This document shows, in pieces, positions 9,409-64,000 of a stretch of 64,000 nucleotides of DNA (its first letter is position 1; every line of letters begins with the position of its first letter). Position numbers and translations under genes: made by a program. The stretch lies in the NCBI GenBank assembly GCA_001769215.1, contig MEOL01000050.1, positions 1 through 64,000 of the forward strand, read 5' to 3'. The stretch comes from Bacteroidetes bacterium GWF2_41_31. GTDB lineage: Bacteria; Bacteroidota; Bacteroidia; Bacteroidales; F082. Below the pieces are notes generated by a model. That model saw only the letters and a program-made list of their open reading frames with translations, did not search any database and was not told where the DNA came from.

Positions 9409-10080
9409 TCATTCAGCATGCGATGTACTTTCAATACCAAACAGGTCATAAGGTTTTTCACTGAATGGTTCGTTAAATAAGAAGACGACCACCACAATCC
9501 AGGCGATAAAGCCCAGAACAATCATTAACTGGGTTATGGATGTTCTCTGAATCGGCTGCCGCGATTTTACATCACACACTTCGCCGGGGCAGTATTGCGC
9601 TTTCTCCTTATAGAACCATGAATAGAATTTACACCCCAGGCAAATGCCAAAGGCCGATTCAAAAAACAGGAATATGAGACAAATTAAACAGATCAGTCCG
9701 GTTATCGGACTGAATGAATTAACGATGATCTGTAGCACAAGCATAATCACACCCAGCCCCAGCCCGATGACCCAGGCAAACTTTTTCTGCTGCGCCCCCA
9801 CGTATTCGGGTGTCTGGTTATAGACTATCATACGCCCAAGAATGAGTGTTGGAGCGTATCTGGGATTAATAAAAACCCGGATGAGGAAATCAGTCAGAAA
9901 GATGACAATGGCATATTTCAGCATCAGAAAATCCCCTTTCATGATCACTATCAGGATGGAAATAAACATCAACAAGAAGAGCAAACCTGCGGCTGCCCTT
10001 ACTTCGCGTTCATTCAATACCGGGATGTTATACCCATCCACATCTTCTCCGAATTTTATTATTTTATTTGCCTTACTCAT
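9409..10080 (-). CDS. DUF4395 integral membrane protein
   Basis: A 223-residue membrane protein with roughly five hydrophobic segments. The sequence RVFINPRYAPTLILGR followed by paired cysteines (FGICLGCKFYSWF and YCPGEVC) matches the DUF4395 family, whose function is unknown. The CxxC-like motifs suggest redox or metal chemistry at the membrane, but that is speculation. It has its own flanking gaps of about 100-180 bp. The downstream gap holds a small TGTCGC/GCGACA hairpin near 9359-9380 without a T-run. Confidence 0.75.
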   Translation of the reverse strand: MSKANKIIKFGEDVDGYNIPVLNEREVRAAAGLLFLLMFISILIVIMKGDFLMLKYAIVIFLTDFLIRVFINPRYAPTLILGRMIVYNQTPEYVGAQQKKFAWVIGLGLGVIMLVLQIIVNSFSPITGLICLICLIFLFFESAFGICLGCKFYSWFYKEKAQYCPGEVCDVKSRQPIQRTSITQLMIVLGFIAWIVVVVFLFNEPFSEKPYDLFGIESTSHAE

Positions 10081-14970: not shown

Positions 14971-15923
14971 CTTTTTGCAGGTTGATCCATTAAGGCAAGG
15001 AAACAATCTTCAATCACCGGTTTTATGGGTGAAATCTGTATTTCCTGATGGCCTTTGCTTTTCAAATAATTGGTCAGGTCTTCAATGATTCCGGCTGTGT
15101 TTTCACTTTGAAAAGTGATGTGAATAAATTCGCCAAAGCGGAAAACCTGCGTGGCATCCGGAAATTGCTCCAGAACCTGCCTACCGGCAGGCAGGTCGGA
15201 TAACAAGCCATACATCTGATTTGACTTAACGGCCAACAGGTTACCAGTAAAACTTTTTTCAATGCATGCAGGGGTGTCGACAGCCAGGAGTTCGCCATGT
15301 TCCATCAGTGCAACACGATCGCAGAGCGAAGCCTCATCCATGTAAGGTGTTGAAACCAGGATGGTAATCCCCTTTTTCTGCATTTTCTTCAACAACTCCC
15401 AAAATTCCATGCGCGAAACAGCATCCACACCGGTAGTGGGTTCGTCCAGCACCAGTACTTCCGGGTTGTGAATCAAGGCGCACGAAAGGGCCAGTTTTTG
15501 CTTCATGCCACCTGAAAGGTCACCGGCACGTCGCTTTTTAAAAGGCTCAATTTGCCGATAAATATCACTTATCAGGTCGTAGTTTTCTTTTACGGATGTC
15601 TTAAAAATACGCGCGTAAAACTGCAGGTTTTCTTCCACGGTAAGGTCTGAATAAAGCGAAAACCGCCCCGGCATATATCCTGTACTTTTTCGGATTTTTT
15701 TGTAATCTTTCACCACATCCAGCGATCCGATAAAAGCCGATCCCGCATCGGGAAGAACCAAACTGGTCAGTATGCGGAACAAGGTGGTTTTACCGGCACC
15801 ATCCGGACCAATAAAACCAAAAAGCTCGCCTTGAATTACGTCAATGGAAACATCTTTCAATGCTTCCACCGTGCCATATTGCTTTTTGATGTGGTTGAAC
15901 CGGATGAATGCTGGCCGTGTCAC
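14967..15923 (-). CDS. ABC transporter ATPase subunit (first), with in-frame palindrome insertion
   Basis: A 318-residue ATPase with Walker A GPDGAGKTT, a canonical signature DLSGGMKQKLALSCAL and Walker B VLVLDEPTTGVDA, followed by an accessory C-terminal domain. It starts at GTG 15923. In the C-terminal domain, near residues 242-249, the peptide DLPAGRQV is encoded by a 20-bp palindrome (15176-15195). That palindrome is a common Bacteroidota element, inserted without breaking the frame. It heads the ABC part of the export operon and overlaps the next ATPase by an ATGA. Confidence 0.9.
   Translation of the reverse strand: MTRPAFIRFNHIKKQYGTVEALKDVSIDVIQGELFGFIGPDGAGKTTLFRILTSLVLPDAGSAFIGSLDVVKDYKKIRKSTGYMPGRFSLYSDLTVEENLQFYARIFKTSVKENYDLISDIYRQIEPFKKRRAGDLSGGMKQKLALSCALIHNPEVLVLDEPTTGVDAVSRMEFWELLKKMQKKGITILVSTPYMDEASLCDRVALMEHGELLAVDTPACIEKSFTGNLLAVKSNQMYGLLSDLPAGRQVLEQFPDATQVFRFGEFIHITFQSENTAGIIEDLTNYLKSKGHQEIQISPIKPVIEDCFLALMDQPAKR
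15176..15195. repeat. Palindromic element inserted in frame in an ABC ATPase gene
   Basis: CCTGCCTACCGGCAGGCAGG has 7-bp perfect arms (CCTGCCT/AGGCAGG) around a near-palindromic centre. In the coding frame it gives LPAGRQ, a peptide I recognise as recurring in unrelated Bacteroidota proteins where this repeat has landed. Confidence 0.75.
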
Positions 15924-28552: not shown

Positions 28553-28588
28553 AAAGTCCGGATCAACTGTGATTCGGACTTTTTTTTC
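28553..28588. terminator. Bidirectional terminator between ssb and the MOSC gene
   Basis: Stem AAAGTCCG/CGGACTTT is extended by GATC/GAT pairing around a short loop. It is followed by a T-run on the plus strand and has an A-rich start that serves the minus strand. The two convergent genes end on either side; its right edge overlaps the last codons of the MOSC gene. Confidence 0.8.
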
Positions 28589-43423: not shown

Positions 43424-43460
43424 AAAGCCCGGATAGAGAAACTACCCGGGCTTTTTTTTG
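43424..43460 (+). terminator. Rho-independent terminator after the TPR gene
   Basis: Stem AAAAGCCCGG/CCGGGCTTTT with a short loop and a run of eight T, just downstream of the stop at 43405. It may also serve the convergent AI-2E gene that ends at 43567. Confidence 0.8.
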
Positions 43461-61885: not shown

Positions 61886-64000
61886 TTATATTACAATATT
61901 AATAATTCTATTGGGAACGATGATGACTTTACGCACAGGTTTGCCTTCCATCCATTTTTTCGCTTCATCGGATTCGAGGGCCGCTTTTTCGATTTCTGCG
62001 ATGGTCAATCCCATCGGGAGATCCAGTTTAAAGCGCATTTTGCCGTTAAATGAAACCGGATACTGAAAACTGGCTTCCGCCAGATATTTTTCAACGTATT
62101 GAGGAAAGTCAACTGTGCTGATACTTCCAGTATGTCCCAACGATTGCCACAATTCTTCGGCTACATGTGGCGCATAAGGTTCAATCAACAAGGCCAGAGG
62201 CTCCAGAATTTCACGTTTGTGACAGTTCAACTCCATGAGTTCATTAACGCAGATCATAAAAGCGCTCACCCCTGTATTAAACGAAAAACGTTCTATGTCC
62301 TCATGAATCTTTTTAATGGTTTTGTGCAACACCTTTAGTTCTTCTTTTGTAGCATTTTCATTGGTAACAATCAATTGATCGTTGTTATCAAAATACAATC
62401 TCCAAAGTCTTTTCAAAAACCTGAAAACGCCTTCAATACCATTGGTATCCCAGGGCTTGTCCTGCTCAAGAGGCCCCAGGAACATTTCATATAAACGCAG
62501 TGTATCGGCACCATATTTTTCGATGAGCGCATCCGGGTTTTGGACATTGTGTTTTGATTTGGACATTTTCTCCACCTCCCATCCACAGATGTATTTTCCT
62601 TCTTCCAGAATAAACTCAGCATTTTTGTATTCTTCACGCCAGGCTTTAAATCCTTTGGTATTCAGCACATCATTTTCCACCAGATCGATATCTACATGCA
62701 GGCGTTGTGTGTCGTAATCTTTGCGTAAGTTATGCGAAACAAATTTGTTGGTGCCCGGTATCCTATATACAAAACTTGACCTCCCCTGGATTTTCCCCTG
62801 GTTTATCAGCTTTTTAAATGGTTCGGCTTCGCAAGCCATACCAAGATCATACAAGAATTTGTTCCAGAAACGGGAGTAAATTAAATGGCCGGCTGCATGT
62901 TCATCGCCACCCACATACAAGTCTACATTGCGCCAGTATTGGTTGGCTTCCGCAGAAAAATATTCTTCCTTATTTTGTGGATCCATGTACCGCAGATAAT
63001 AACCACTCGAACCTGCAAAACCAGGCATGGTATTGGTTTCCAGCGGATAGCCTTCCTTTGTTTTCCAGTCTGTCAGGGCAGCCAGTGGTGGATCACCCTG
63101 TTCAGTGGGTAAATAGCTCTCTACCTGAGGTAGTTTGAGCGGTAATCCACTTTCATCCAAAGTATAAGGCATTCCATCTTTATAATATATTGGGAACGGT
63201 TCACCCCAATATCGTTGACGGCTGAAAATGGCATCGTGCAAACGGAAATTGATAGTTCCATAGCCAATGCCCATCTCCTGTATTTTGTTGATGGTCGTTA
63301 TGATAGCTTCTTTCACTTTCATACCAGTAATGAAGCCTGAATTTACCATCACCCCTTCTTTACTGTCGATGGAATCGTCCCAGGTAGCGGGATCAGTAGG
63401 CTCTTCACCCTCCTTCACCACCACCTGGATGATGGGTAAATCAAAATGACGTGCAAAGGCAAAATCGCGGGAATCATGACCTGGAACCGCCATAATAGCA
63501 CCTGTACCATATCCGGACAGCACGTAATCAGCAATCCAGATGGGAAGTTTTCCACCCGTAAGTGGGTTTACGCCATAGGCACCGGTAAATTCTCCGGAGA
63601 TATTTTTTACTTCGGTCATACGTTCCCGTTCCGAGCGATTTTTGGCCCAGGAAACATATGCCTCAACCTTTTCTCTTCTGCTGGCGGAAGTAATCTGAGA
63701 AACAAGTTCATGTTCAGGAGCAAGCACCATGAAAGTGGCACCAAAAAGGGTATCTGGACGGGTGGTGAAGACTGTGATTTTTTGTGTTTGTTGATTCGGT
63801 TTATTTACCCCACCTATATCCTCCCCGAGGGGGAGGACTTTGGTTGATTCGTTTAAATTTTTATCAGTGATCTGCTCCCTCCCCTCCGGGGAGTCCCAGA
63901 TGGCTATCGGCAGGGGTGGGGTAAATGAATCTCCTTTATCAGTAGTCTTTACTTCTGCTTCATTTACCCCACCTAAATCCTCCCCAAAGGGGAGGACTTT
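61886..64000 (-). CDS. leuS: Leucyl-tRNA synthetase (5' end beyond window), with in-frame palindromic repeats
   Basis: About 705 C-terminal residues of LeuRS. The editing domain (CP1) begins [22 protein letters not shown] at about 63685-63750. Later come [37 protein letters not shown] and KMSKSKHN, and a C-terminal anticodon-binding part. The ATG at 63730 is internal: the frame stays open to the window edge at 64000. In that stretch, just ahead of the editing motif, the frame reads through palindromic DNA (63803-63926 and 63962-64000). That adds peptides such as [13 protein letters not shown] and [13 protein letters not shown]. It charges tRNA-Leu and is essential. Confidence 0.95.
63803..63926. 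repeat. Palindromic repeat element translated inside leuS, unit 1
   Basis: The ends ATTTACCCCACC (63803-63814) and GGTGGGGTAAAT (63915-63926) are perfect inverted repeats. Inside is a hairpin CCTCCCCGAGGGGGAGG, and a second C/G-rich half-palindrome (CTCCCTCCCCTCCGGGGAG) lies further in. All 124 bp are in frame with leuS. Confidence 0.85.
63962..64000. repeat. Palindromic repeat element translated inside leuS, unit 2 (cut by window)
   Basis: These 39 bases match 63803-63841 at 36 positions, including ATTTACCCCACC and hairpin CCTCCCCAAAGGGGAGG. The leuS frame is still open here; the element probably continues beyond the window. Confidence 0.85.

Follow-up and report, generated by a model that had tools for sequence, protein, structure and literature searches.

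A palindrome-bounded DUF559 nuclease domain carried in frame within leucyl-tRNA synthetase: a candidate unspliced, homing-like element of Bacteroidota

The leuS gene and its insert

The window analyzed here, a stretch of 64,000 nucleotides from Bacteroidetes bacterium GWF2_41_31, ends inside leuS, the gene for leucyl-tRNA synthetase (LeuRS). The gene forms one frame of 1210 residues (contig C50, 61886-65518, minus strand), of which the window holds 61886-64000 only. It is present as a single copy, this being the sole locus in the genome above the leuS_bact cut-off (TIGR00396, 908.7 bits). A sequence-only reading of the window had proposed that palindromic repeats are translated in frame within leuS, immediately ahead of the FTTRPDT motif. 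The translated frame is indeed open from 63730 to 64000 on the minus strand, and LPxGEDxGGVN peptides directly precede FTTRPDT. The palindromic units at 63808-63826 and 63967-63985 are real as well, none such appearing in 100 shuffles. The RNA fold of 63790-64000 has a z of -6.0, with none of 200 shuffles equally stable. Two of the six GC-rich 9-bp hairpins in the window fall within this 200-bp stretch of leuS; the other four (15176-15195, 43427-43451, 9693-9713, and 28556-28579) differ in sequence from the leuS repeats.

The sequence-only reading captured only part of this feature. The insert runs past the window end and contains a nuclease domain, which that reading could not include because the domain lies just outside the window, at contig positions 64178-64489. 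In all, approximately 283 residues are added ahead of FTTRPDT, with translated palindromes on either side of a complete DUF559 domain (PF04480; 107.4 bits vs a curated cut-off of 20.6), and the distance from NWIG to FTTRPDT is 307 residues. The features are collected in Table 1.

Table 1. Coordinates of leuS and the parts of its insert (contig C50 numbering)
Feature	Position	Strand	Remark
leuS, in-window part	61886..64000	-	gene continues to contig position 65518
R-type palindrome, AAAGT-hairpin-ATATAGGTGGGGTAA	63800..63841	-	translated; right edge of insert
L-type palindrome, outer end TTTACCCCACC	63872..63930	-	translated; REPIN-like pair with R-type palindrome at 63800..63841
Second R-type palindrome	63959..64000	-	translated
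Further L-type and R-type palindromes of insert	64001-64177		outside window
DUF559 nuclease domain of insert	64178-64489		aa 344-447; outside window
Left-edge R-type palindrome of insert	64582-64624		outside window

At the DNA level, the order of a unit is TTACCCCACC, hairpin, spacer, AAAGT, hairpin, ATTTAGGTGGGGTAA, giving paired hairpins with inverted outer ends in a REPIN-like plan. Four of the six frames are stop-free in the R-type repeat, five in the L-type, and two in the whole unit of another species of the genus (G003). Across the genome, the R-type repeat yields four matches at up to three mismatches, all inside leuS. A reversed-pattern control also gives four matches and is uninformative, since the R-type pattern is nearly identical when read backwards. 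With every R-type match confined to leuS, we reject the simple spread of a repeat family through the genome. The sequence-only reading had inferred a repeat family able to spread into coding DNA; the leuS repeat is not widespread here, and the thing that spreads is the combined element of DUF559 and palindromes, found across the phylum.

Partial matches to the leuS palindrome are found on contigs C21 and C10 of the same genome. The C21 contig carries a leuS-like palindrome within the frame of a 679-residue protein, near its C-terminal end (L015:597-650). The genome's second DUF559 gene, on C37, is free-standing, encodes 135 residues, and lies between palindromes of similar plan. We also note a MITE-like repeat with ends TGAGTCCACTCCGAAAAGT on C52, C34, C22, C14, and C7 (L160-L164), which nests the palindrome pair found beside the free-standing DUF559 gene.

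Occupied and empty sites in LeuRS and other enzymes

The NWIG-to-FTTRPDT span was read at 23 leuS loci, including that of the window. It measures 24-27 residues in 12 loci and 36 and 42 residues in two, 52-73 residues in the three that have palindromes without DUF559, and 175-337 residues in the six with both. The segment is not universal, as 14 of the 23 loci lack a palindromic insert. The earlier proposal is correct in that palindromic DNA was added in frame to a tolerant loop ahead of FTTRPDT. Within the genus, G001 and G002 have several palindrome units plus the nuclease in leuS, and the same insert anatomy is found in assemblies of three species; G003 has a single palindrome unit in frame at the site and no nuclease there. 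The leuS loop of G005 combines palindromes with a KEYLDNKV stub, which by eye resembles the tail of the nuclease part, so a deletion may have left this loop as a remnant. DUF559 is present in leuS in at least 8 of 61 relatives. The LeuRS proteins of G037 and G041, without DUF559 at the FTTRPDT site, are long for other reasons.

A degenerate DUF559 occupies a second LeuRS site, after the residue matching position ~921 of the window protein, in nine LeuRS from five genera of the same family (g3, g4, g9, g14, and g15; L197-L202 and L206-L208). In these copies the E, W, and DF residues persist and the D, G, and H residues are gone. The nine aligned LeuRS show no palindrome-like peptide next to the degenerate domain. 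Sites thus exist in four states: empty, with palindromes only, with a live-looking nuclease, and with a dead one. A homing cycle, which proceeds through invasion, decay, and loss, would be expected to produce all four.

DUF559 is present in 222 of 395 genomes of the phylum and in 2 of 14 control genomes. Among the 150 top-scoring matches listed in the phylum search, 49 lie in frames of at least 300 residues. A scan of named genomes gave at least 586 confirmed matches, the best 80 of which were kept as named loci; 54 of these best 80 are in frame with another protein. This share is an overestimate, because the scan alignment (A1) has in-frame copies in nine of its ten rows, and the 49 of 150 is the less biased figure. 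LeuRS accounts for 18 of the 54 in-frame loci plus one at another site, IleRS for seven, and MetH for five plus one at another site. IcmF, RecG, and ValRS are hosts in three cases each, and PurL, RecJ, and type ISP proteins in two each. Acetyl-CoA synthetase, CoA-transferase, PriA, MetRS, an epimerase-type protein, MazG, and an AAA helicase each appear once. The host labels derive from motif rules with HMM checks on 16 proteins, and those of ValRS, HsdR, Mod, HsdS, and MTase were assigned by eye. The HMM scan named the host family in all 16 of the in-frame proteins submitted to it. Host matches flank DUF559 on both sides in 13 (judged from two matched stretches for L082, L099, and L147); the match lies only before DUF559 in L079 and only after it in L104 and L151. 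In PurL, the domain is C-terminal rather than internal in all three cases.

In the ValRS proteins of L173 and L171 (G497 and G484), DUF559 sits just before ATTRPET, the spot corresponding to the LeuRS site. Proteins resembling restriction-modification enzymes by eye also contain DUF559 in frame (L196, G002 C105; L209, G014 C152; and L056/L059/L064). A few cases lie beyond Bacteroidota, in a Paceibacterota LeuRS, an Alphaproteobacteria PriA, and an Anaerolineae type ISP protein. For MetH, 121 genomes of one genus were searched and 115 matched the query, some possibly through DUF559 or a fragment only; at least 12 have the insert, and the loop is empty in all 18 other genomes fetched from that genus. 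Empty and filled sites therefore both occur in leuS and MetH, as compared between species.

The association with palindromes extends to these loci. Over the 80 named loci, hairpin density is 5.6 per kb within 100 bp of DUF559 vs 0.28 per kb at 1-10 kb, a 20-fold difference, and perfect-stem hairpins number 2.9 per kb within 150 bp vs 0.10 beyond 2 kb. The 54 in-frame loci have 65 hairpins within 200 bp of DUF559, with about 4 expected from random anchors. Hairpins are found on both sides at 13 of 26 free and 20 of 54 in-frame loci, compared with 1.7% and 0.14% of random anchors, a free locus being defined as a frame under 260 residues without a host motif. At least one side has a hairpin at 18 of the 26 free loci, and neither side does at 24 of the 80 at the settings used. 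Edge peptides such as PPTPKGG, PSPKGRG, LPSGEDLGG, and APPSGAGGA resemble read-through palindromes. Beside free-standing genes the hairpins may in part be terminators, which could hardly be the source of hairpins inside frames.

Fold, conservation, and descent of the nuclease domain

Ten positions are invariant in all 116 DUF559 copies aligned (T15, E18, W22, D46, F47, C49, E57, G60, H63, and R73), and D59 is conserved in 115; D46, F47, and C49 belonged to the scan pattern for 80 of the rows and not for the other 36. Profile searches of the PDB match DUF559 to 3hrl (6e-33) and 3r3p (4.8e-7). A good-quality model of a LeuRS copy from another species (L092; pLDDT 88, pTM 0.82) superimposes on 3hrl with a Z-score of 15.8 and on I-Bth0305I (3r3p) with 11.9 over 94 residues. 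Foldseek likewise aligns it to 3r3p_A (E 1.3e-4). The match to Vsr (1cw0) has a Z-score of 9.7 over 99 residues and is tied with mitoribosomal protein chains (9.4 and 9.2). The modeled domain is thus predicted to adopt an EDxHD/Vsr-like PD-(D/E)xK nuclease fold. Seven of 13 pairs have a measurable dS, and in these DUF559 has a dN/dS ratio of 0.09-0.33; the ratio exceeds that of the host in five of the six pairs in which dS could be measured in both. Given the invariant residues, the fold match, and the dN/dS, the embedded nuclease is kept in an active-looking form, with presumed catalytic residues and predicted activity.

The AlphaFold model of a whole LeuRS, based on 16 sequences, is only fair (mean pLDDT 68.5, pTM 0.44). 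It presents DUF559 as a separate domain with flanks of low confidence, as are other segments of LeuRS. No separate DNA-binding domain is seen in the DUF559 insert. Pfam still annotates DUF559 as a protein of unknown function. Of two proteins run through PADLOC, one had weak matches to homing endonuclease and restriction enzyme models and the other had no match. The PHROGs matches were likewise weak; the top one is of unknown function, and another is named HNH endonuclease. As these matches are weak, we reject membership in a defense system.

A tree of the 116 domains has 31 changes of host label, compared with 68.9 when labels are shuffled; it was built from 113 columns, its bootstrap had not settled, and row L116 is shortened by a stop. 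The IcmF, RecG, HsdR, and RecJ copies each lie on one side of a branch. Label changes relative to rows are 2/10 for MetH, 6/26 for LeuRS, 4/7 for IleRS, 2/3 for ValRS and PurL, and 3/3 for TypeISP. Judged from these sequences, copies at one host site tend to fall together even when their families differ, and this grouping is partial. The MetRS copy falls inside the MetH group and one ValRS copy inside the IleRS group, placements in which jumps between host genes are visible. A single LeuRS clade is not rejected by the AU test (p = 0.193), and vertical descent with loss is therefore compatible with the LeuRS copies.

Within the genus of the window, the nuclease is less diverged than the gene that carries it. 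Over codons 325-447 (the nuclease plus the linker on its left), G001 differs at 4 of 74 synonymous sites, vs 174 of 521 in leuS outside the insert (p 5e-8); for G002, the counts are 14 of 74 and 277 of 555 (p 4e-7). This test excluded the remainder of the insert, codons 270-296, and, in the G001 comparison, the codons up to ~80. The right-hand palindromes (codons 500-576) differ from G001 at 12 of 23 synonymous sites and are as diverged as the rest of leuS, so the likeness is confined to the nuclease and its left side. Relative to G003, divergence rises from 0.12 ahead of the insertion point to 0.46 immediately past it and then drops to 0.27, the kind of trace that recombination near the element leaves. 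Ordinary recombination could also explain the low divergence of the nuclease, leuS being mosaic in general.

The RecJ pair has a dS of 0.28 in DUF559 vs 1.22 in the host, and in all the element is clearly less diverged than its host in 4 of 13 pairs, three of them from one genus plus RecJ. In L059/L064 and L087/L092, the element is saturated in dS and the host is not. Synonymous sites in the MetH set are near saturation; they reveal no clear recent transfer and are uninformative on recency. LeuRS from a Paceibacterota metagenome-assembled genome (MAG) is 42-46% identical to 15 Bacteroidota LeuRS, which are 56-60% identical to one another in four cross-family pairs. Its DUF559 is 42-56% identical to the Bacteroidota copies, with 43-54% in the same four pairs. 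Unless the contig is misbinned, which is possible, this DUF559 is as near to the Bacteroidota copies as these are to one another in the four pairs, and its LeuRS is clearly more distant.

A homing-like reading and its alternatives

We consider it moderately probable that the insert is a mobile element of a homing-like type, unspliced, translated in frame, and flanked by palindromes, with presumed cutting and homing. The observations from which we argue are the anatomy, the open frame, the conserved nuclease, the patchy presence, the tendency to group by site, and the local drop in divergence in one genus. The basic element would be ~0.4-0.5 kb and consist of a palindrome, a short linker, the DUF559 nuclease, and a second palindrome; the leuS copy of the window would have grown to ~850 bp through extra palindrome units. 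The element occupies a loop of an essential protein without breaking the frame and would be produced together with that protein; to the extent that sequence can tell, it is neither spliced from the RNA nor excised from the protein. The nuclease, attached to its host or released, would then cut element-free alleles at the same site, and recombinational repair would copy the element and some flanking DNA into the cut allele. The palindromes, stop-free in most frames, may serve as flexible in-frame joints and perhaps also as substrates for cleavage or recombination. With age, copies would either forfeit the nuclease, of which the second LeuRS site in related genera is an instance, or be reduced to nuclease-free remnants, and occasional ectopic jumps would start new lineages in other genes. 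The recurrence of this arrangement in many other housekeeping enzymes of related bacteria suggests a selfish gene with no need of splicing in order to spread.

The main rival is a transposon or REPIN-like system, in which the nuclease acts on the hairpin ends of the palindromes and transfers them to many sites, whether its own gene goes along or not. Only in-frame copies in tolerant loops of essential genes would survive, and site specificity would be merely apparent. Hairpins flanking free-standing copies fit this account, as do the palindrome-only unit of G003, the paired palindromes inside a different MITE of the same genome, and the great diversity of hosts. We hold it unlikely, because random insertion does not predict the tendency of copies at one host site to cluster across families; the confinement of the leuS repeat type to leuS in its own genome, at up to three mismatches, also counts against it.

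Ancient insertion followed by vertical inheritance and many losses, with DUF559 now a structural or regulatory domain of its host, appears improbable. It accords with the AU result, with purifying selection on DUF559, and with retention of a domain devoid of its D, G, and H residues in the nine second-site LeuRS. The ten invariant positions, presumed catalytic residues included, are intact in every copy, embedded ones too, which is at odds with such a role. So are the patchy presence, the lower divergence of the nuclease part than of its gene in the genus, and, binning error permitting, the nearness of the Paceibacterota DUF559 to Bacteroidota copies despite a distant LeuRS.

A reading in which a RAYT (Y1 transposase) mobilizes the palindromes as REPs, with DUF559 a passenger, is very improbable. 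The units are REPIN-like and the genome has seven Y1_Tnp matches; six of these seven loci were inspected and none has a DUF559-type hairpin, and across 80 loci hairpins cluster beside DUF559. On the basis of these six loci and the clustering, we reject a RAYT as the partner. Each of the RAYT-like loci on C52 and C3 has a hairpin type of its own, distinct from that of DUF559 and present in several copies (C52:81800-84700, L241, GCCCGGGATTAAAATCCCGGGT; C3:158400-161200, L246, GCAGCTGGCTAAAGCCAAGCTGC). Homing nucleases often travel in introns or inteins, as described in part of PMC3943268, yet an intein, a group I or II intron, or an assembly artefact is scarcely credible here: the six Pfam matches of LeuRS (E 0.001) include no intein or splicing domain, L007 has no Rfam match at gathering score to a known RNA element or intron, the frame is kept through repeats and nuclease, and the same anatomy recurs in assemblies of three species.

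The homing-type nuclease is of a known kind, and its way of living in a host gene appears to be new. Its catalytic domain is related to that of the EDxHD homing endonuclease I-Bth0305I by sequence and by fold, and the two systems share site-wise lineages, patchy presence, and, in one genus here, a local drop in divergence. EDxHD enzymes are described with introns in the sections of PMC3943268 available to us; in contrast, no self-splicing intron or intein is found here, and the element is bounded by palindromes and translated within an essential host protein. Like inteins, it places a homing-type nuclease in frame in conserved enzymes at recurring sites, but it has no detectable splicing domain and appears to stay in the protein. 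DUF559 belongs to the same fold class as Vsr and YcjD (DUF559/COG2852), which were linked earlier (PMC1189080, in part); that account treats PD-(D/E)xK enzymes, and its relevant passages do not mention palindrome-bounded inserts.

The sequence-only reading had drawn a parallel with Rickettsia palindromic elements, which are palindromic DNAs inserted in frame into unrelated protein genes (PMC10969869, excerpts). By description, the likeness in in-frame insertion stands. The parallel stops at the complete, conserved nuclease domain, which those excerpts do not mention for the Rickettsia elements, and at the recurrence of the present element at the same sites in distant lineages. The paired inverted hairpins beside a small nuclease gene, together with a gene-free pair, recall REP/REPIN systems with RAYT. 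Unlike in those systems, the enzyme is a DUF559 nuclease rather than a Y1/HUH transposase, the units are often coding, and the genome has separate Y1_Tnp loci with other hairpins. Full-text searching of a limited collection found no literature joining DUF559 with palindromes or in-frame insertion.

More tentatively, the window copy may represent a widespread class of unspliced homing elements, in which palindrome-bounded DUF559 nucleases invade essential enzymes in frame, are translated with them, and spread through the cutting of empty alleles. The palindromes, stop-free in most frames, would provide in-frame linkers, each host site would have lineages of its own, and passage between phyla would occur. 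Many Bacteroidota genes contain nucleases with conserved, intact-looking active sites inside essential enzymes, with no visible splicing device. If homing is confirmed, selfish nucleases would have an additional means of residing in essential genes, and proteins would have a source of large in-frame insertions that bring their own linkers. DUF559 would also gain a biological role, and puzzling insertions in tRNA synthetases, MetH, RecG, and RecJ would be accounted for.
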